Positions 1,491 through 26,709 of a stretch of DNA of 64,000 nt are shown piece after piece. Under the pieces are notes generated by a model that worked only from the letters and a program-made list of their open reading frames with translations, was not told where the DNA came from and searched no databases. The stretch lies in assembly GCA_947179485.1 (NCBI GenBank), contig OX359250.1:14118539-14182538 (forward strand), given 5' to 3'. Every line of letters begins with the position of its first letter. The first letter of the stretch is position 1. The translations under genes and the position numbers were made by a program. This DNA comes from Allacma fusca. Taxonomy: Eukaryota; Arthropoda; Collembola; Symphypleona; Sminthuridae.

Positions 1491-1840
1491 CTAACAAGCC
1501 GGATCAATTGTTTTTGCAGAAGACAATTCTGGGCTCTCTGAGATGGGATTTTCAGTGATACGAATATCATTGAGGCCTTTGTCAAGAACACGAACATCCA
1601 CCCCAGTGGTGACCAATTTGGATGTAGCCGTTGCCTCATTTCCATTCAAGCTGATGAGAGTCAAATTACTTGCTTCTGCTTTTGGTGTTGCAATTCCACT
1701 GCTTCCACTCCCACTCCCACCCGACACATTCCCTCCAGAACCTCCATTCAGGCTAACACTTGAACCAGCAGAAGATCCAGCACCGCTATCAACTGATATT
1801 TTTCGATTCAGAGCCACTTTCTTCTTTGAAAGGCACGGAA
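1491..1840 (-). CDS. NDRG last coding exon: Ser/Gly-rich tail
   Basis: The acceptor TTGTAG ends at 1841 and the two leading bases complete the Val of GYVP, which matches the GYIP/GYMP junction in vertebrate NDRGs. The exon then reads PCLSKKKVALNRKISVDSG, a long run of Ser and Gly, and ends TIDPAC at a TAG (1493-1491). The RKIS and nearby Ser residues resemble basophilic kinase sites, in keeping with the phosphorylated tails known for NDRG proteins. The complement of this exon also carries a long open frame on the + strand (1543-2016), which is a shadow. Confidence 0.88.
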
Positions 1841-4800
1841 CTACAATTTATAACGCATTAGTATTATTCAAAGTTCTGCAAATTTCATTCATACTACATT
1901 TTTTTTATTGCTACATCCCCTCCAAATGTTACCCTAAGCGTACATTCATTACAGCTATATACGATGTAGTAGCACAAAGTCATTCCTACGGAAATTTGAA
2001 AGAATATAAAAGGTAGTGGGACTATCCACACTAAAAGCGTATTTTAGAAGCACATGCTTTGTACCCATTGACATCGAATTCTCTGTAAGCTCCTCTCCAT
2101 TATTATAGGTATAGCTATAATTTATTACATAAGCATGAGCACAGAGAAAAAAAGCATGATATCCAAAAGGCAAAACATTTATTATCTTGTTTAAATTCAC
2201 ATACCTACTTCATAACCTCATGTCAGTAATCTACATGGAAATACGTTCAAAATTGTATTAATAAATAATAAGCCTCTCAACCACAGTCACCTCAAACCAC
2301 AATCACATCATTACACAAAAGCTTGCAAAGGGAGAAGAGATGCAAGGTTAAAAAAAACAAAAAAACAACAATTCGCAAAATCAGTGGGCTTATTATTTCA
2401 TTGGTATCAATATCAATGTATAAGTTTATCACTGCATGCAAAAAAACTTCTGGATTGTAGAAGGTAAATTCCGAACCTCTTCTGATGAACACTTAAAGCA
2501 AAGGAGAGACAAGGGTGAACGGTTTGGTTCGAAAGTCAAGGTAGCAGAGAAGGTAAAAATCAATTTCCATTTGTAAGCCCAAGATAACGTTTCTCTTCCG
2601 AGAGCAATACCTTCAGGGATTCTCCATTAGAGACAATCAGTAGCAGAAAAAAAAAATAAACTAGCCGTTGACCAACTTAGAAAACATCGATTACTTAAAG
2701 TGCTTAATAGTTGGTTCTCATAGTAAGGTCCATTCAAGTAATTTTGCGTACACGTGCATGCCCATTGAAAAGCATTGAAAACATCGCTATACCCGCAAGG
2801 AAATTCGTGGAATGCTTATATAAGTTTTAACAAGAAAAAACTTCAGAAACCCAACCAATGCATAAAATAAGTACATATTGAAAATCCCCACAAAATAATA
2901 ACTAGTTGTGGTAAACAACGAATATTTACAAAAAATGCAAATCCGAATAATAATGAATTTGCAATTTTTTCAACAGTCACGAATAATCAATCACAAGGCC
3001 ATTGTTGAAATTTAAACATTTGCCCGCACACAGCTCACACCTATGTATAAAGATGACATTTTACAATGTACAGAGCTACAATAATTATTATAAGTGTTAG
3101 TCAAAAAACTTCAAACCTGATTTGGACATAGCAAGTTTTTAATAGAATCACAAAATAAGTGTGACATTATTATTATGTTAATATTTTAACGGCCTCCAAG
3201 ACATGATATTATCCAAGCCCTCCCCTAAACACTTGAATGTTAAAAATTCGCAATTCAATGCAGGTAAGGAAGCAGAAAAAAACATTCAAGAAATTAACAG
3301 AAAAACACAAACAGCTGTTTTATACATTTCATGACAAAAAGAACAGTTCAAACAGAACTTTTTTCCTGTTATACATTTTAGCTAATTAAAATGGTAAGAC
3401 GAGATTTCGGAGAGCAAGTAAGTACAAAAAAGAGCACCGTTTGAACTAATAACAAACTGAATACGTTGTTGTATTTATTGTGGCGTTTGGACAGTATTTC
3501 ATTATTCGAATATGGTAGACACGTGTAAGAACATAAGAAAAGTAGCTTTGTCGGGACAGTGAGTTGTATGCTTAACAAACACTTACACAACAAAATGAAT
3601 GCAAAATGGCCTTTTTATCTCTCAGAGCATTCCATCCACAATCCTGCTTGACTTTTTAGAAGCATTTACCTTCGGGCAACGAGTTCTTCCGGAATAATTT
3701 TAGAGCTTCAGAGGAGCAAAGAGAATCGGAAAATAAACGAAAGAAAAAAATCAAAAAATTTCATCAGATATCAGTGTGGATACAGAGTCCTCACTCCTTA
3801 ACAGCTTCAGCACCTCACCAGACAAAAATCACCAGACGAGATCAGTAAATTCATACTAATTATATTTAGAATTAATAATATGTAAGTAGCACATATTTCA
3901 AAGAAAAAATTCAAAATTATACACCGTCACAGTAAAGAAAAATAATACTGAGAATGGTAATGATTATTCGAATACACTACAAGAGAATAAAAAGTAAAGT
4001 TACACAAATACATGATGTTGCTGTCAAATTCTACGGGAAAATAGTTAATCTATTGCTTTGTGCTAGTCTTTCAAGGAAGATATTGAAATTACAGATTAAA
4101 TCAAGAAAAACTGCAATCAGTTTCTTCTGATGGATAGCTGGTTTACACGGTATGTTGATGCTTCAAAGTATATTTTAGAATTTAACCAGCTAAGAACTAC
4201 TTACCGTATCCTTGGCCTTGCAGGAAAAGTCGAAAAGCTTCGCTAAGCTTTGCAGGTTGTTCCTCCATTACCATCCCGCAATCCTGAATCTATGTCATTA
4301 CAATGAAAAAAATCATTTGACATCCTCCATTGTGAATGCATACCCCAATAAATGTACACAAACAGAGAGGTAGAAAATGTAATAGCTTAAACAAACCTTC
4401 ATCCATGTAGAGTTGACAGGGTCTAATCGCCCGTTGAAGGTGACTGTGTCGTCAACATGAGGGGACAGAGCTCCCGTAATATTCAAAACTGCCATTTTAA
4501 GTGTTCGGGCTTCCTTCCTGCGAATCGGATCAAGTTCTCTCACCATACCTAAGTCAGTTCGCCTGATGTAGGAGTCAATAAACATGCCCAAATTGATTGG
4601 ATTCACGTTCTTTTCGAAGTACTGGCGGTACACATGAACCAAATCATGATTTCGATCTTCAGTCACCTTTACAAAAGAAGATAAATTAATCATTGCAAAC
4701 CTTTCTTATTACCGTACCATATCTGATAGCAATACAATACCTTTCCGAAGTGGTGCCACATTAAGTAATCGAGGACACCCTGGGTCATGCCCTTTGCCTT

Positions 4801-7800
4801 CAGGTTGCGAGCATTCAGCTTCTGATAACCCCATTCGATCCATCCAGCTTGTGTTGAAATACAATTTAGCACGCAGAGTGCATCAACCTATGTAATAATC
4901 AAACAAATAATAATGTAGCTAGTACTACACAATCTCTCCATTATCATCCCAACTTTATTACGTAAGTAAACAGTGAATTACCTTTTCAGAGTGATTTAAC
5001 GCAAAACGGCACAGGATATTAGCCCCAGCACCAACTCCAAACCCAATAATACGCTTCAACCCGAAGTGGATGAGAACATCCAGAAGTTGTTCCGCCAGCT
5101 CATCCATTGTTGGGTACACAAACCTATAAAAACAGTTCCAAAATTAATCAAAACCAATACTCTTCTGGTCACAGCAAACTCTCAGAGCAATTCAAGTAAA
5201 GGTGAACAGATAAAACAACACATTATTCTTACGTTTCCATGAGTGTCGGTGCACCTTCTTCCTGTCCCGGAGCGTTTACATGATAAATGCAAAAATTTTG
5301 GAGAAGAAGACGCATGTCCACGAAGTTAAAAAAAGCTTGGAAATTTGAAACATCTGAGACAGAAAACAAAAACCAAGGTTTACATAAGTTCTCAATCAAT
5401 ATATGGCCTTCCTGTGCCATTAAAATCCTTTTCACATTTTATATCACTTACAGTTCAGACCGAGGTCATGGTACGTAACGATGGCGGGTTTGGAGCGATC
5501 TCCTTGGATTCCAACAAGAACCGAACCAAAATTGGTATCGACTCTTTCCTCCGAAGCCAAACTGTCACCCCTGGCTAAGGTTCTCGTTGTCGGGAACGAA
5601 AGCTGAATATTTCTCAGCTCCACTTCATCCATACTTTCGGATGGATTGCACCTGTAAGATAATAAATAATTTTAAAAATCTTGACTGTAAATTGTAACAC
5701 GATAGCAACTTATGTTCTTCAATGCCAATAAATAAAATTAAGCAACTTCAATTCTTTTCCCGTCTCAACAAAGCCAATTCTAGCAGTTTATAAAGCCTGC
5801 TAATCATACCCAAAAGGTTCTTACCCCACAGAAAAGCAATGCAAGAATAAATGGCTTCAACGGAAATAAGCACTAAATGCAATATTAAGTCATACTGATT
5901 GCCAGTGACTTGAGTGACTAAAGCAAACTAGTGCGGTTAAGACATCTGCCTACCCAAAGTAAGCTAAATACTACTTGTTACTTGCAGTGTCCCATAAACA
6001 GTCATATACTCTTCCATAGACGGAAGACTCAGACGTGAAACGATTACGCAAGCAAAGAGGACTATATATGCGTTGATTGCAAAACACTCCACCACACACA
6101 GGAAATGCATAAAATGCAACGACTTTTTGGCGAGACAAAAAAACATCTTCACCAATACTGAGCAATTAAGGAAACAGTAATTAAAATGAATATTTCTAAA
6201 GTGTAATCACCAAGGGGCTCCAGCACTATATGATGTCGTGAGCGTAGCCATTGCTGAAAAAAATTCCCTTCAAAACTTCACCCAGTAGGAATGAGGTTAA
6301 ATACAGTAAACCTCTTGGAGCCAGTAACTGATCAAGAAGACGTCAGAAGACTACACTGACTGCCTGCAGATTACCTCGAGATAACTCTCTGTTTAGACTA
6401 AAATGCCTTTATCAAAGGATCAAAGTGCAGTTTGTATTTATTGCTGCTAAAGTAAAAGACTTTTCTCTTTAAGCTGTGACAACAAGACTGCTGTATATCC
6501 AAATGAACGTCGCTGTGATAATGCGTCGTATATTTTCCCTGCTCCAGTTTCCAGATCAGTCAGTCGGTTACGCATGTAGTACGCATCCCAAAAACGCACA
6601 AATTCCGCTGGCCCCAATAGAATTTTCAAGATTTGGTCATGGAACTTGGAGAGGTATGTTGAGACTCTTGGAACCACTTTGCGACCGTATGTACTTATAG
6701 TGCTACACAGTTCTCCGACCTTCCAGTGAAGACAAGCCCAAACCTATAGTGGGCTAGGGCTAGAGAGTATATATACTCCCCGAGAATTTCCTCAAGTTCA
6801 ACGGTTTATTTAAATTTCCGTCAAGTAAATTCGAAATTAGAATTTGAGAAGGGTCCCCTCACCAGTGACAGAGATAATGGTATCTATATTACAAGTAGTT
6901 ATTTTGATAACTGTGTCGGCAGTACTGATTATAGTCAATTTCTTTTCTAGGCGTTTCTTACTGTTAGCAATTATTCGTTGTAGTACTAGTAGTAGATTTG
7001 GGAAGTCAGACCTATTACACTCGTGCACAGTAATAACTCGAGTGTTGGCTCAGATTGAATTCAGGGAGCACTCGATCCTCGGTTGACACAAAGCCTATTA
7101 TTTAATTATTAGTGTGTGAGGACATTGGAAATGTGAAAGCGCAGGAGAATTGTGCAAGGAAACCGAACCTTGAGTAAAAATACCGACGGGGCTTTCTCCA
7201 TGTAAATGTAGGGTAGGACTTGGTCTGTAAGTCCTGTATACAAACAAGAACTGCTGTATAGCTAGGGCTCTTCAGACCGGCTCCATAGGATTATAGTACA
7301 AGAGACGGCGAAAATCGATACGAAAGTTCATCGCCACAGACGGGATTTTCCGGGAGGAACTCCATTCTCCGGGAAACTTTCTGCAATTTACTGGGAAGAT
7401 ATTCTAGGAGGAATTTCTGCGTTTCTTTATAATACATTATGTTACTTCACGGGATAGGGACCCAGGGAAATGTTATAAGGGTATATATAGATATAACCAA
7501 TACACCCATTCCCTTCCCACTTATACAGACAGAGACGTCGTTTAAAGTGGGATGGGATTATTTGCAAATTTTAGAAAAACCTCCCTCGAGATAAGCCTTT
7601 TCTTTCATGAGTAAATATGCTGATGTAACAGTCAGTTGCACTCAAGCTCATTGTCAGTAGACATTACTCTGCTGGTTGACAATCCGTTTTTTTTAAATGC
7701 TCCAATTTTCAAAAGGAAGAATAATGCATACGCATCAAAAGTACAAACTCACATTTGTCATGCTATGATGCAATACTTAAGGCTTTATTCCGTTACACCC

Positions 7801-13800: not shown

Positions 13801-16559
13801 AAATAGACTGTATTTGTAACTGAAAGATTTAGATTCCCTAGCAGTGACTATGGTCACATGGTCAAGAAAATCGGTATTGATTTCCTTGAAAAGTACCAAC
13901 GGTAGGTGAAACCCCGAGGTACGAGCCTTCACTTCGTGTGTGTATTAGCTGAAAAATGATTCCCATAAGAGTAATAGGGCAAGGCAAGGCATTCGTAAAA
14001 TTAATCTGAAGATACACAAAACGTGACATCGCTACCTACTGCACTTCCATCATTGGGTGAGTGCATATACTTATATACCCTCTGTGATAGAATAAAAAAC
14101 CACTATGTAATTATTACACTCCAATTCCAAGCCAATCAACTCCATTAATCGTGGGGTAGTAAAAAAACATGTATCCCGCTCCGACTTGTAAAGTAATAAT
14201 ATTAGTTTCTGTGAGTGCATTTTCAGCCTGAGTGACTGTGGAAATAATCAGGAAAAAAAAACTATTTCAAGACTTTTGTAATTTTTGTAATTTAGCTTTT
14301 GTTGTCAGAGTGAAGCTTCAATTCTGAGAGGCATTAAAGTAAATGGAATGGAAGAACCCAAATCGTGTAATAGGAACGAAAGCGTAAAAAAGCCACTTGT
14401 ACAACAAGCATGAAAACATCAAAGGTACTCGAGTTAAGTAACCCAGGCCCATCCACATTACAAATTGAGTTGCTTCAACATTACTTGCCACATTACAAAT
14501 CAGCAGTTACTATCGAAATCTTGACGATTTGTTATCTTTCACAAAATTGCATCTTACCCTAGCAGGGCAGCTTCTTCCATTGACGTTGAGGTGGGCATCC
14601 TTCCTGGTCTATCCCTGTAACATCAGAAGACAAAAAAATAATTAATTTCAACACATGATCATGGGGAAACTTGTGAATTGTTGTAATAAATGCATCAAGC
14701 GAAGATAATTTAGACCACAGCTCCATTTTTTTTTTGTTAGCTTTAATTTAATTTACACACTATACAGCTATAATCATATGCAACCACCCCATGATGTCTT
14801 TCACCAACCCTGTTAGGGCGTCTATAGTTAAGTGTACTGGAATTCTGTATATAATGATATTAATGATTATTGTAAGACTGCAACAATAATACATGCACTT
14901 TTCCTGTGGTTTAAATTAATGAATCGCACAAGTATACATAATTACTTATAACTAATATTTATATATATAAATAGGTATTCCATACAAATTACAACTGTAT
15001 ACAATATACACGTATAAGTATCTATATACATATAATTAAAATCCCTCACTGACTCTTTATCCGTAGCTATAACCTACGTATATATAATGGAAAGTTCTGC
15101 ATACGAAACATTAAGCTTTTCCATCACCGGACCACACTACTTACTCTTCTGTTATAATGACAAGAGTCGATGCAACCATAGAATTATTTCGTAATCATAA
15201 TGCACCAATGTCTTTTCTTTCCCAACATGACTTAGGATTTACTTTATTTACAAATATAGGTACACAGAAGCCTACATACAAGGTCCCCTTCAAAACCAAC
15301 CATCTGAAGCCCATCACCACCCATAAATCCAAGATTCCCTGAGCCGTGAAGTGTAATTCAAAGGTGAAGTCATCCGCCAGCTCCTACATATGCAATGTTG
15401 CAATTATTTTTAACTACAAAAGTAATTAGAAAAATTCATCAAACAGGCCCAAGGTAATCTTTGGTTTCACTCAAGCCCTCTATCCTTTTCGACACGGAAG
15501 GAGGCAAACACTACTGGACACTAACTGCTTTCGTGACGTTGAGCTTATAAATAACCTTGCCACCGGGTTTAATGCTTGCGTGTTAAGCATTAGACCATAA
15601 TCCTAGAGTTTAGCACACGAGGTGATTTGAGGTACAGAGGGTTAGAGAGGGAAGAATTAGGTACAAATTAACCACATAATCTTGTGTCAGTCAGTACAAT
15701 ATCCACGTGTAAAAATATGTTTTTCTACTCTACACACAATAAATTACAGGAACTGAGAGTGCACTGTGAACAAAAGTCAAATATATTCAGACTAACCTCG
15801 TTACAAAATACTGGCTCATTTCGTAAAATCTACTACAGGTGCAGTTTCCCCACGTGAACTAAAATATAAAAATCTATCTGCATATTACGAAAGGCTTGCG
15901 CATGCAAATAAATGTATGACACCGAATAAATATGGCATGTTCTCGAAATTTGTCTCATGAGCCATCTCCCCCTGTAATAAGGAGAATGGAGGCACAATTA
16001 GACGCTAATCTCATGTATTATCACGTCCTTTTATTCAACAGTGCATTCCTTCAACAGCATCAGATCAGAGAGATATTCCCAACACAACAAGAATAATGGC
16101 TGACTTGACGAAATTCAACGACTCAAAGAAGAGAAGAGAACTACTTCATCAACCTCTGTTCCACTACAGACAGGGACTACTAGAAAAAATCAATTTACTT
16201 TCGATTCTCAAAATTTATGTAGCTACTATCATATTTTTCCTACAGCAGCATAAAAAAAACGTCCTATGAGCAATAGGAGCTTGGAAGTGACTCCTCCCTC
16301 AAGTATTTAGTCAACTAAAATAACAAAGGACCGAAAAGGCAATTCACAATAAAAAAAAAGTAGATACTCTCCTATGAGTTGGTACAAAGAAAAGTGCTAG
16401 TTCCATTGTATCTCTATAAGACACGCTGAGTTTTATTTGATCATCACACACTCATGAATTTTCTACTTGATATAATATGTATGAGCACATAATTCTTAGT
16501 CAAATGTGTCACATTGAGACACTCGGCGTATTTTATAGAATAAGTGCTATAAAGACAAA

Positions 16560-16590
<31 letters not shown>

Positions 16591-17373
16591 CATGAATAAA
16601 ATAGTAGTCACATTCTGAAAGAGAGGGGTTTCATGGTACTGAGAAGAGAGCTTTAAATTTCCACTACTATTAGCAAATGTCCTGCTGACATCCAAGTTCG
16701 TTTACACTGCGACAGTTGTCGACTTGATATGGTCATAAACTAGTGCTTCTAACAATTGTACATACATGGAATATTACATAGAATAAAACTATGGAATGAA
16801 ATGTGAAAAATAGCACAGGCTTTATGTTGTAGTAGGTTTATGCTAAAAATAAATAAAAAAAAAGTTAAATAATTTGTTGTGCAACCATAACCAAGACTCT
16901 AAGTACAAATTAGTGCTTAGTGCTTACTATATAATACATTAAGCTACTCTCCACACCATCACCCCAGATGTCCCAAGAAAGAATGATATATATATATATA
17001 TATAAAAATGTGTGTAGCAATATAAGTGCAGTTTTGGACTTGTAGATGACAAACTAAACTACCTTCGAAGGATTCGGTCGTAATTGATTCCAGCACTATG
17101 AACTTGAGAGGATACCAAGTCCTCATGAATGTTTGGCAAAACGAAAACACTTTGCGATGCTCTGAGTGGACCAGAGCCCGAATAATTACTGGAAGCACCC
17201 CGAAAAATTCGTTTCACAGAGTTTACCACACTGAATTTGTCCGGTCGAGCGTGAGTTGGAATCCCCCCGTCAAAAGAAGGTCTCGTCGTACTTCTGTATA
17301 CATCATTTTGACCCACATTCTCTCCACCTTGATTGTTCAATGCTGAGTACGACCCGCTAAAAACTGACCTCAT
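1491..17373 (-). CDS. NDRG-family protein (N-myc downstream-regulated gene family), nine coding exons, long N-terminal form
   Basis: Coding exons in transcript order are 17373-17063, 14614-14558, 5651-5452, 5353-5233, 5123-4982, 4887-4741, 4666-4397, 4289-4205 and 1840-1491. All eight introns are GT-AG and the sum is 1683 nt, giving 560 residues plus stop. Residues about 125-447 are the NDR domain, an alpha/beta-hydrolase fold; landmark motifs are TYHDLGLN, NAPGQEEGAP, YPTMDELAEQL, GFGVGAGAN, RFALNH, WIEWGYQKL, NPINLGMFIDSYIRRTDL, RLDPVNSTWMK and LSEAFRLFLQGQGY. At the nucleophile elbow (residues 259-263, GVGAG) a Gly replaces the serine of true hydrolases, as is usual in NDRG proteins, so no hydrolase activity is expected. 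The tail (448-560) is Ser/Gly-rich and ends in PAC, comparable to the short Cys-terminated tail of vertebrate NDRG1/3. NDRG proteins are cytoplasmic or membrane-associated factors in stress response, differentiation and vesicle traffic. Paralogue number is not assigned because invertebrate members do not map one-to-one onto NDRG1-4. Confidence 0.9.
1841..4204 (-). other. NDRG last intron
   Basis: A 2.4-kb AT-rich intron bounded by GTAAGT (donor at 4204) and TTGTAG. I see no additional exon or recognisable element in it. Confidence 0.75.
4205..5651 (-). CDS. NDRG core domain exon cluster (six exons)
   Basis: Six closely spaced exons (5651-5452, 5353-5233, 5123-4982, 4887-4741, 4666-4397, 4289-4205) code for the complete NDR/alpha-beta-hydrolase domain. 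Introns of 67-121 bp separate them. The boundary of the last one was set at the acceptor ending at 4290, which gives MKIQDCGMV and aligns with the MKMADCGGL-type segment of vertebrate NDRGs. An alternative AG six bases further in (4284) would drop two residues without breaking the frame. Order and content match the family throughout, with no frameshift or stop. Confidence 0.93.
5652..14557 (-). other. NDRG large intron
   Basis: An 8.9-kb intron between exon 2 and the core exons. It contains a hAT-type miniature element (12297-13172) and a short TA-rich tract near 11370-11410. The open frames inside (for example 6447-6677, 7636-7983, 8740-9030) show no family motif or usable splice context. 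Unrecognised alternative first exons for a short isoform could lie here. Confidence 0.7.
12297..13172. mobile_element. non-autonomous hAT-type element, 876 bp
   Basis: The ends are inverted repeats TAGGGTTGGTCAT and ATGACCAACCCTA. An exact 8-bp duplication, GTAGGGAC, lies on both sides (12289-12296 and 13173-13180), the target-site size of hAT transposons. Subterminal regions are packed with ATATCGTTA-like motifs in both orientations. There is no coding capacity. The middle (about 12551-12965) contains palindromic GAATTGAAT/GATTCAGTT sequence and may be a second, nested insertion with degraded ends. Confidence 0.88.
14558..14614 (-). CDS. NDRG exon 2, containing the likely short-isoform start
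   Basis: The exon is flanked by TTACAG on the acceptor side and GTAAGA on the donor side. It reads R-D-R-P-G-R-M-P-T-S-T-S-M-E-E-A-A-L-L-G across its junctions and joins in phase to the exon at 5651. Two in-frame ATGs (14598-14596 and a few codons on) could start a short isoform of about 451 residues, nearer the usual NDRG length of 340-400. The next exon is nearly 9 kb away. Confidence 0.8.
14615..17062 (-). other. NDRG first intron
   Basis: A 2.4-kb intron between the N-terminal extension exon and exon 2. It contains a GA microsatellite (16561-16590), a TA microsatellite near 16987-17004, and a small perfect stem-loop around 15569-15592 (TAATGCTT and AAGCATTA). No exon was recognised. Confidence 0.6.
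16561..16590. repeat. (GA)n microsatellite
   Basis: Uninterrupted GA run of about 25 bases followed by a GGGAGA variant. Confidence 0.95.
17063..17373 (-). CDS. NDRG first coding exon: novel N-terminal extension
   Basis: ATG at 17373-17371 has A at -3 and an in-frame TGA five codons upstream, so this start is well defined. The exon codes for about 103 residues rich in Ser, Gly, Asn and Arg (beginning MRSVFSGSYSALNNQGG), predicted to be disordered, and ends with ILR plus two bases at the donor AAG/GTAGTT. Joining to the acceptor at 14615 completes an Arg codon and runs in frame through RDRPGR into the internal Met of exon 2. That exact phase match, plus the open frame, is the reason for assigning it to NDRG. 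I recognise no domain in it. It may belong to a long isoform only, with other first exons feeding the internal ATG at 14598. Confidence 0.65.
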
Positions 17374-19811: not shown

Positions 19812-20278
19812 TAGGGATGCCAATGGTCTGGTCCGGACCATTAATAATGGTCCGTTATTGGTCTGGTCCGGTCTGGTCCTAGACTTGTATGGTCTGGTCC
19901 GGTCTGGTCTAACACTCGGACCAGACCAGATACAATTGGTCCAGCTTCAGGACCAGACCAGACCAGACCACAGGACCATGGTCCCAAAAGTACGCAAAAT
20001 AAAAATTTATGAGTTAACGAAATCCTGTGGAACAAATTAAAAATGTCATTTCTGAGGATAAAAAAAAATTTGACTGGATAAAATGTGATTATTCAATTGC
20101 TCTGAATGGTTTTCTGGACCATGGTCCGGACCATGGTCTTTGGTCTGGTCTGGTCCGAATGACTGGATCAGACCACTGGTCTGGTCCGAAAAACTGGACC
20201 AGACCAATGGTCTGGTCTGCGCTTTGGACCAGACCAGTTTCATAAAATCTGGATCAGACCAGACCATTGGCATCACTA
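19812..20278. mobile_element. hAT-type miniature element, 467 bp, with reiterated GGTCTGGTCC
   Basis: The ends TAGGGATGCCAATGGTCTGG and the inverted CCATTGGCATCACTA are flanked by an exact 8-bp duplication, GTTTAAAC (19804-19811 and 20279-20286). The outer thirds consist of many copies of GGTCTGGTCC and its complement in both orientations; the middle (about 19985-20110) is plain AT-rich. No transposase is encoded. The open frames rich in W, S, G and P that run across it are produced by the repeat and are not genes. Confidence 0.92.
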
Positions 20279-24660: not shown

Positions 24661-26709
24661 ATGAGTCGAGTTATATGTGTCTCTTTGGCAATTGTCATTG
24701 CTTCCTTTGTGGGGGTTGCGGTAGCGGAAGAAGAACTTCAGATTGAAACTACCTTCACGCCGGAAGAATGTACAGAAAAATCCACCAAGGGTAGTCTACT
24801 GACTATGCACTACACCGGTACTTTCGCTGATGGGAAGCAGTTTGATTCCAGGTTAGTATCTTTGAAAGCATATTTATTGGGTTAATTCAGCAATATTGAG
24901 AGGATGGAATGTGTTTTGGAATTTTTTTTGCTGATGGGGGATTTTTTGGAAGTTGAAGGAGAGTCTTGAGAGGTGTCATTATATGCCAGATGTGTGTGAG
25001 TCAGGATTTTAGCATGCAGTTTTTGAACTTGACGGAGATTGATTGAGCAGCTGCAGCAGATATATATATATATATAAGTATATGAATGTATGTGTGTGTG
25101 TGTGTGTATGTATGTATGAAGCGTTGGCATGAATTCCATGTGGTGATGAAGATGAGATGGCATATTGGGAAAGATTTTGGAGGGAAGGATTTTGATGTGT
25201 GTGTGGGGTTTTAATGATTTTAATTGGTTTATTGTTTCCAGCCGGGACAGGAATCAGCCTTTTACATTCCAAATTGGAGTAGGACAAGTAGTTAAGGGTT
25301 GGGACCAGGGCCTTCTCGATATGTGTGTAGGAGAAAAACGTAAATTGATCGTACCCCCGCATTTAGGATATGGAGAACAAGGCGCTGGGGAAGTTATTCC
25401 TCCTGGTGAGAGACAATTTTGACATTTGAAGAGTATTTTAGAGGAAATTAATTGAGTTGCTGGGCTCTCCGGTTTTGATAAGTATTGGTATATGCAAGGG
25501 AGTGTTGGAGGTTTTTGGTTTTGTCGGATGCTTCTAGTTTCGCAGATAGGAGAGATTAAAGGTCGTTGTCACCGGCCTTATTGCATTGGACGGAGGCTTG
25601 AGTTCCGTCCACACTTGCACGCTCATACTTACCCCCGTCAGCGAGTTTCATTTCAGTGTACGAGTATCTATATACGTACATACAGTTGGCCTTCACAGTT
25701 GGGTCGTAGGTTTGAGTAGTTTGTGCTGTATTTGGTTAGGTTCGGTTTCAAAAGGGAAAGTTACTTATTGTAAACCGACTTTCGCTTTTTTACTCTTGGC
25801 TTCACTTCGTTTGCCTGTTTCTGGTTAGGTGAGGTTAAAAGTTAAAAAATCTGATTATAGCCTTGATGATGCCATTTTTATTAGTCTGTACTCCCTTAAG
25901 CATTAGGTGTAAACGCGACCTCTCATATATCCGAAACTAGAAGCAATCGACTGAAAAATTCTTTCAGTTTCTTAATCTACTGTTGAGACAGTGTGTGTTT
26001 TCTAATTTTTATCAAAACGGAGTAGAACTGGTAAAGCCAATTTGTTAAAATATTTTGATAGCTAAGGGTTGGTGGCGGTGGTGTTACTTTTTTAAAGATG
26101 GAATTAATCAATTTCGACTATTTTAATAGGTTCCACCTTGCACTTCGAAACTGAATTGCTCAAGATTGAAAAAGCTCCTCCAGTTGTCAACGTCTTCAAA
26201 GAGATCGACTCTAATGCCGATGCTCAGCTCTCTCGGGAAGAGGTAAATGAAGTCTTGGTTCATTAGATCAAGTAGATACATTAACACAACTTAACTAAAT
26301 CTATTAAAACGACAGAACTAAATTGACACAACTTAGCTAGATTTACTTAAGTTACGTAACTAACTTAGTAACGAACTTAATTACCTTGACTAACCTGACA
26401 CAGCTTACCCTACTTTATACAACTTAAATAATTGAACACATCTTAACTGAGCTAACTTGTCATTTTAATCATAATGGAGAATGTGGGGTATTAATTATTG
26501 ACATTTTTTTATTACAGGTGAGTGATTATCTAAAAAAGCAAATGGAAACAATGAAGACAGAAGGAAATAACGAGGAAAACGAAGAGGTCCGTAAGGCGTT
26601 GGAAGATCATGACAAACTAGTTGAAGAAATCTTTCAACATGAAGATCAAGACAAAAATGGTTTCATCACCCATGAAGAATTCTCCGGACCCAAGCATGAC
26701 GAGCTTTAA
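24661..26709 (+). CDS. FKBP14: FKBP14-like ER peptidyl-prolyl cis-trans isomerase with two EF-hands and HDEL
   Basis: Four exons (24661-24851, 25242-25405, 26130-26242, 26518-26709) join in phase to 219 residues; human FKBP14 is 211. Residues 1-22 are a signal peptide (cleavage likely after AVA). Residues about 40-131 are the FKBP domain, with the pocket residues visible in MHYTG, FDSS, VVKGWD, GYGEQG and VIPPGSTLHFE; C37 and C92 fit the disulfide of the secretory FKBPs. EF-hand loops are residues 145-156 ([12 protein letters not shown]) and 199-210 ([12 protein letters not shown]), both with canonical calcium ligands. The C-terminus HDEL is an ER-retention signal. The protein catalyses proline isomerisation in the ER lumen; vertebrate FKBP14 acts on procollagen. 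Introns 1-3 use GT-AG sites. The ATG opens directly into the signal peptide, which supports this start. Confidence 0.95.

Follow-up and report, generated by a model that had tools for sequence, protein, structure and literature searches.

A candidate coding first exon that would give the NDRG protein of Allacma fusca a long N-terminal tail

The locus raises the question of where its NDRG gene begins: at a methionine close to the conserved domain, or in a distant upstream exon that would add a long tail to the protein. The window, by which we mean the whole stretch of 64,000 nucleotides analysed, is C9:14118539-14182538 of a 393-Mb genome in 91 contigs, the set used for the own-genome searches. 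On its minus strand, nine exons separated by eight introns, all of them GT-AG, join to 1683 nt encoding 560 amino acids. The frame is intact and the sole stop is terminal, so that the chain is indeed free of frame errors, as the sequence-only reading had stated. The exons, all on the minus strand, are as follows.

Exon 1, 17063..17373, minus strand: 311 nt; ATG, 103 codons plus 2 bases, phase-2 donor AAG/GTAGTT; would encode extension residues 1-103.
Exon 2, 14558..14614, minus strand: 57 nt, a symmetric phase 2-2 cassette containing Met110; acceptor and donor scores are good.
Exon 3, 5452..5651, minus strand: the final 7 extension residues, then Met130, near the family start.
Exon 4, 5233..5353, minus strand: Ndr domain.
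Exon 5, 4982..5123, minus strand: Ndr domain.
Exon 6, 4741..4887, minus strand: Ndr domain.
Exon 7, 4397..4666, minus strand: Ndr domain.
Exon 8, 4205..4289, minus strand: end of the Ndr domain.
Exon 9, 1491..1840, minus strand: Ser/Gly-rich C-terminal tail and stop; poor acceptor (-4.27, approximate matrix).

Family membership is clear. Residues 158-445 match the Pfam Ndr profile (PF03096) over positions 2-282 of 283, with 350.4 bits against a cut-off of 23.3; the extension lies outside this domain, as had been claimed. The PDB matches at E <= 0.001 comprise nine distinct sequences, all nine named NDRG1, NDRG2 or NDRG3, and 6l4h_A (NDRG3) aligns with residues 152-470 (E = 3.8e-82). Judged by sequence, the protein has the Ndr fold in common with NDRG3 (6l4h) and with NDRG1 and NDRG2, and the gene downstream of exon 1 is an ordinary NDRG gene. 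Residue 27 of 6l4h_A pairs with residue 152, so that the chain start falls, by ungapped extrapolation, within about five residues of Met130, in exon 3. The extension had been put at 109 residues; that it is long holds, but relative to the usual family start, near Met130 in the 6l4h_A alignment, it measures about 129 residues, contributed by exon 1 (103), exon 2 (19) and exon 3 (7). Whereas 6l4h_A has 26 residues before the aligned part, the protein described here would have 151 if exon 1 is used, and a short tail in a form starting at Met130.

Honeybee and Drosophila are each reported to have a single MESK2 gene, the insect NDRG, which likewise encodes an Ndr-domain protein; isoform I of Drosophila has 485 and the predicted honeybee protein 383 amino acids, compared with 560 here, these being total lengths only (PMC2821913). 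Among the titles and abstract openings listed, no literature on an N-terminal extension of an arthropod NDRG was met, and such work may still exist in print; the term 'undescribed-looking' used in the sequence-only reading is provisional.

Exon 1 opens as the earlier reading described, its ATG preceded by an in-frame TGA and five codons, and its junction with exon 2 does translate as R-D-R-P-G-R-M. Reading upstream from exon 2, and likewise from exon 3, meets an in-frame stop within a few codons, so that the protein must begin either in an earlier exon or at an internal methionine. Exon 2 is itself well defined: the 11.4 kb separating exon 1 from exon 3 contain 327 open internal candidates of 30-199 nt with phase 2-2, and exon 2 ranks top among them with 12.7 bits, 6.5 bits ahead of the next (6.2). 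Since exon 2 is symmetric, exon 1 could also join exon 3 directly with the frame kept. Splicing to exon 2 would yield the 560-residue protein with its 129-residue tail, and splicing straight to exon 3 a 541-residue protein with a tail of 110 residues. The exon 1 donor has a moderate score of 1.74, under five and over two (0.06 and 0.66) of the gene's other seven donors; the donor and acceptor matrices are approximate metazoan values rather than values trained on this species.

Head to head with the NDRG gene lies a second gene:

FKBP-type isomerase gene, 24661-26706, plus strand: two exons above the FKBP_C cut-off; probably includes an EF-hand exon.

The EF-hand stretch near these exons scores 24.7 bits, just below its cut-off of 25.4, and we infer that it is part of the FKBP gene. 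In Drosophila, Fkbp14 also lies near MESK2, an arrangement resembling the FKBP-NDRG pair described here. As the plus-strand FKBP gene begins near 24.66 kb, the NDRG promoter is probably located in the intervening 7 kb, at 17.4-24.6 kb. Close upstream of exon 1 there is no clear arthropod initiator, the weak leads being TCATT (17732) and TATAAA (17538). The same interval contains a small 31-bp tandem repeat at 20145-20217, with a partly palindromic unit (TGGTC / GACCA), and a TGGTC array nearby at 19859-19910. In the genome as a whole TTAGG repeats are abundant: a 30-mer of this unit, the usual arthropod telomere repeat, has 1482 overlapping exact matches on the forward and 2005 on the reverse strand (control, 0 and 0), in keeping with an arthropod.

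Upstream of exon 2, across 49,386 bases, no phase-2 candidate other than exon 1 has at least 80 codons and a donor of at least 0. A rival reading takes exon 1 for a chance open frame in noncoding DNA, the true first exon being elsewhere, either a 5' UTR exon or one of two short phase-2 candidates at 22742-22702 and 22381-22308, which have stronger donors (7.08 and 6.89). Long frames are indeed common: the window has eight ATG frames that reach 103 codons or more and 20 stretches that stay open for 109 codons or longer, some of them on or opposite known exons, compared with 1.7 and 4.8 on average among 30 first-order Markov copies. Because the real window is richer in long frames than its Markov copies, the length of exon 1 is not the evidence for it.

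Codon composition is more informative. Among the 84 open stretches of at least 80 codons within the window, exon 1 ranks second when the score is trained on NDRG exons 3-8 (z 2.68), on the non-kinase flanks of kinase genes (z 3.58) or on the pooled set (z 3.26), and eighth when trained on kinase domains alone (z 2.12). The kinase training used 23 of 30 kinase loci, namely the rows without a stop, the other seven being omitted. In the pooled test four known coding stretches rank 1, 3, 4 and 5; one of them, exon 7, sits inside both the NDRG 3-8 and the pooled training sets. An initial training on NDRG exons 3-9, on which exon 9 ranks first of 84, leans towards Ser/Gly-rich sequence, a bias that the other tests were meant to remove. 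A score from synonymous codons only was discarded as powerless here, as it placed two known FKBP coding stretches below 0.

The reading frame itself is picked out to varying degrees. Flank training puts frame 0 of exon 1 clearly at the top of the six (0.160; next 0.062), and pooled training does so by a small margin (0.103; next 0.095). With kinase-domain training, frame +1 (0.063) and one reverse frame (0.061) exceed it (-0.006), and with NDRG exon 3-8 training frame +1 is slightly above it (0.015 versus -0.012). Independently of any training, the RNY fraction of exon 1 is 0.359 in frame, compared with 0.167 and 0.216 when the forward frame is shifted, and by RNY fraction its whole open stretch ranks third of 84.

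Two further observations arose from these surveys. A 98-codon open stretch in intron 2 (6450-6743, minus strand) also has a fairly high codon score, ranking fifth of 84 with training on NDRG exons 3-9 and fourth of 84 in a further codon test; it has no Pfam match. At C8:49982416-49993648, on the minus strand, a tandem array gives six equal-scoring kinase matches at an exact spacing of 2141 bases.

Controls combined length, donor and codon score. The real-DNA control took in the window and four own-genome stretches, each on both strands, for a total of 207,802 stranded bases. Ten ATG frames there stay open for 100 codons or more up to a GT, whatever its phase, and in four of them the donor reaches 1.7. 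Among these four, exon 1 leads in codon score (0.103), followed by a frame inside NDRG exon 7 (0.087) and two others (0.004 and -0.217). The simulated control consisted of 4000 order-2 Markov copies of the 10-kb region separating exon 2 from the FKBP gene: 736 contain a phase-2 candidate that reaches 100 codons, in 66 the donor is equally good as well, and none also attains the codon score; with NDRG-trained codons the corresponding counts are 411, 40 and 0 of 2000. Given that long frames are several times commoner in the real window than in first-order copies, such simulated odds are too favourable. Together with the codon evidence, the real-DNA and simulated controls nonetheless make a chance frame very unlikely.

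The same simulation bears on whether exon 1 is a stand-alone frame of 104 codons, unspliced to NDRG. When unspliced, the frame does close immediately, at a TAG right behind the donor (AGG TAG). This would demand a coincidence, with the frame ending exactly at a phase-2 AAG/GT that fits an exon 2.4 kb away on the same strand, and the requirement for an equally good donor is what reduces the simulated phase-2 matches from 736 to 66 of 4000; we consider it highly improbable.

A coding first exon spliced onto NDRG is thus the best-supported model, and exon 1 is very probably coding and part of the gene. A distinct matter is which methionine is used. Exon 1 might be transcribed while translation starts mostly at Met110 or Met130, with exon 1 rarely used or its peptide inconsequential. 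Both methionines have an A at -3, and the Ndr match starts beyond exons 1 and 2. The exon 1 ATG, however, also has an A at -3, the composition of exon 1 is protein-like, and a transcript carrying it would normally initiate at Met1; of the three ATGs lying between 17700 and 17374, none opens more than 18 codons (18, 1 and 9). Translation mainly from an internal methionine is therefore unlikely, although a shorter form from Met110 or Met130, made via another 5' exon, may coexist. Overall, we put at roughly three in four the probability that exon 1 genuinely opens the coding sequence of an arthropod NDRG gene of MESK2/NDRG3 type, being transcribed and spliced to exon 2 or 3, with a tail of the kind described below.

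The exon 1 product of 103 residues contains 17 Ser, 10 Gly, 10 Val, 9 Arg and 8 Asn, with a net charge of +4 and a GRAVY of -0.47. AlphaFold2, run on the single sequence without an alignment, returns a mean pLDDT of 52.5 and a pTM of 0.11, with helices at residues 47-57 and 99-102, the first of which is the exception to a generally low confidence; as the model rests on one sequence at that confidence, helix and disorder are hints only. The tail is probably mostly disordered, and its exon 1 part would have a single short basic amphipathic helix:

Predicted basic amphipathic helix, 17203..17235, minus strand: residues 47-57 (FSVVNSVKRIF), from AlphaFold2 and the hydrophobic moment.

The highest hydrophobic moment in exon 1 is that of residues 48-59, reached by 26 of 2000 shuffles. 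Basophilic kinase motifs in the exon 1 product include R58-G-A-S and R71-A-S, simple motifs that are weak evidence; serines near the 47-57 helix may be open to such kinases.

Relatives of the tail were sought in several places. Exon 1 matches neither a Pfam family (E <= 1) nor a PDB sequence (E <= 10). A search of the own genome with residues 1-123 finds three places, two being the exons themselves and one, at E = 0.214, being taken as noise; the extension is single-copy as far as this search shows. A spliced retrocopy that would attest the exon 1-2-3 junction was also looked for in the own genome, and the three matches obtained are the three exons themselves. In two collections, neither of them arthropod, tblastn confirmed none of the pattern matches to exon 1 (6 in viral_contigs and 82 in genome_contigs). 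The same genome contains a second, strongly diverged Ndr-domain gene at C5:31846974-31858662, on the minus strand, with 25 of 74 residues identical over one match. It was considered as a paralogue with the same tail and set aside: when the 560-residue protein was compared by tblastn with four stretches around that gene (39,901 bases), the extension gave one 16-residue match, at E = 3.0, among the alignments listed.

What such a tail might do can be considered in the light of known NDRG proteins. NDRG proteins are reported to have a hydrolase-like fold without hydrolytic function, and three splice isoforms of NDRG1 are known that differ at the N-terminus and in location (PMC12027247); NDRG1 binds PI4P and, as a Rab4a effector, is recruited to recycling endosomes (PMC1952073). 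In the first of these accounts the NDRG1 isoforms are truncated, being without residues 1-66 or 1-81, whereas here a long tail would be added in front (PMC12027247).

For the Allacma gene, a promoter upstream of 17.4 kb would drive the transcript carrying exon 1, and the likeliest action of the tail would be to help position the NDRG protein at membranes or partners. A role in location or partner choice would suit an arm that is disordered and carries a basic amphipathic helix, and we hypothesize that the extension serves isoform-specific targeting or regulation, as the sequence-only reading had suggested. A more specific proposal, of an isoform with its own promoter in which a disordered, phosphorylatable arm of 129 residues with a basic amphipathic helix sends the NDRG fold, itself catalytically silent, to a specific membrane in a single tissue, is speculative and rather unlikely. 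We know of no vertebrate NDRG with a membrane- or partner-binding arm of this kind.

Our best reading is of a long, probably flexible front end with one short helix on an otherwise ordinary NDRG protein, a disordered tail for regulation or membrane contact. If exon 1 is used, annotation of the gene from Met110 or Met130 would lose up to 129 residues, and the gene model would need correction. The placement of NDRG proteins in the cell matters for what they do, and with a first exon that codes for an arm of its own, the effect of the tail on location could be tested against an identical core.
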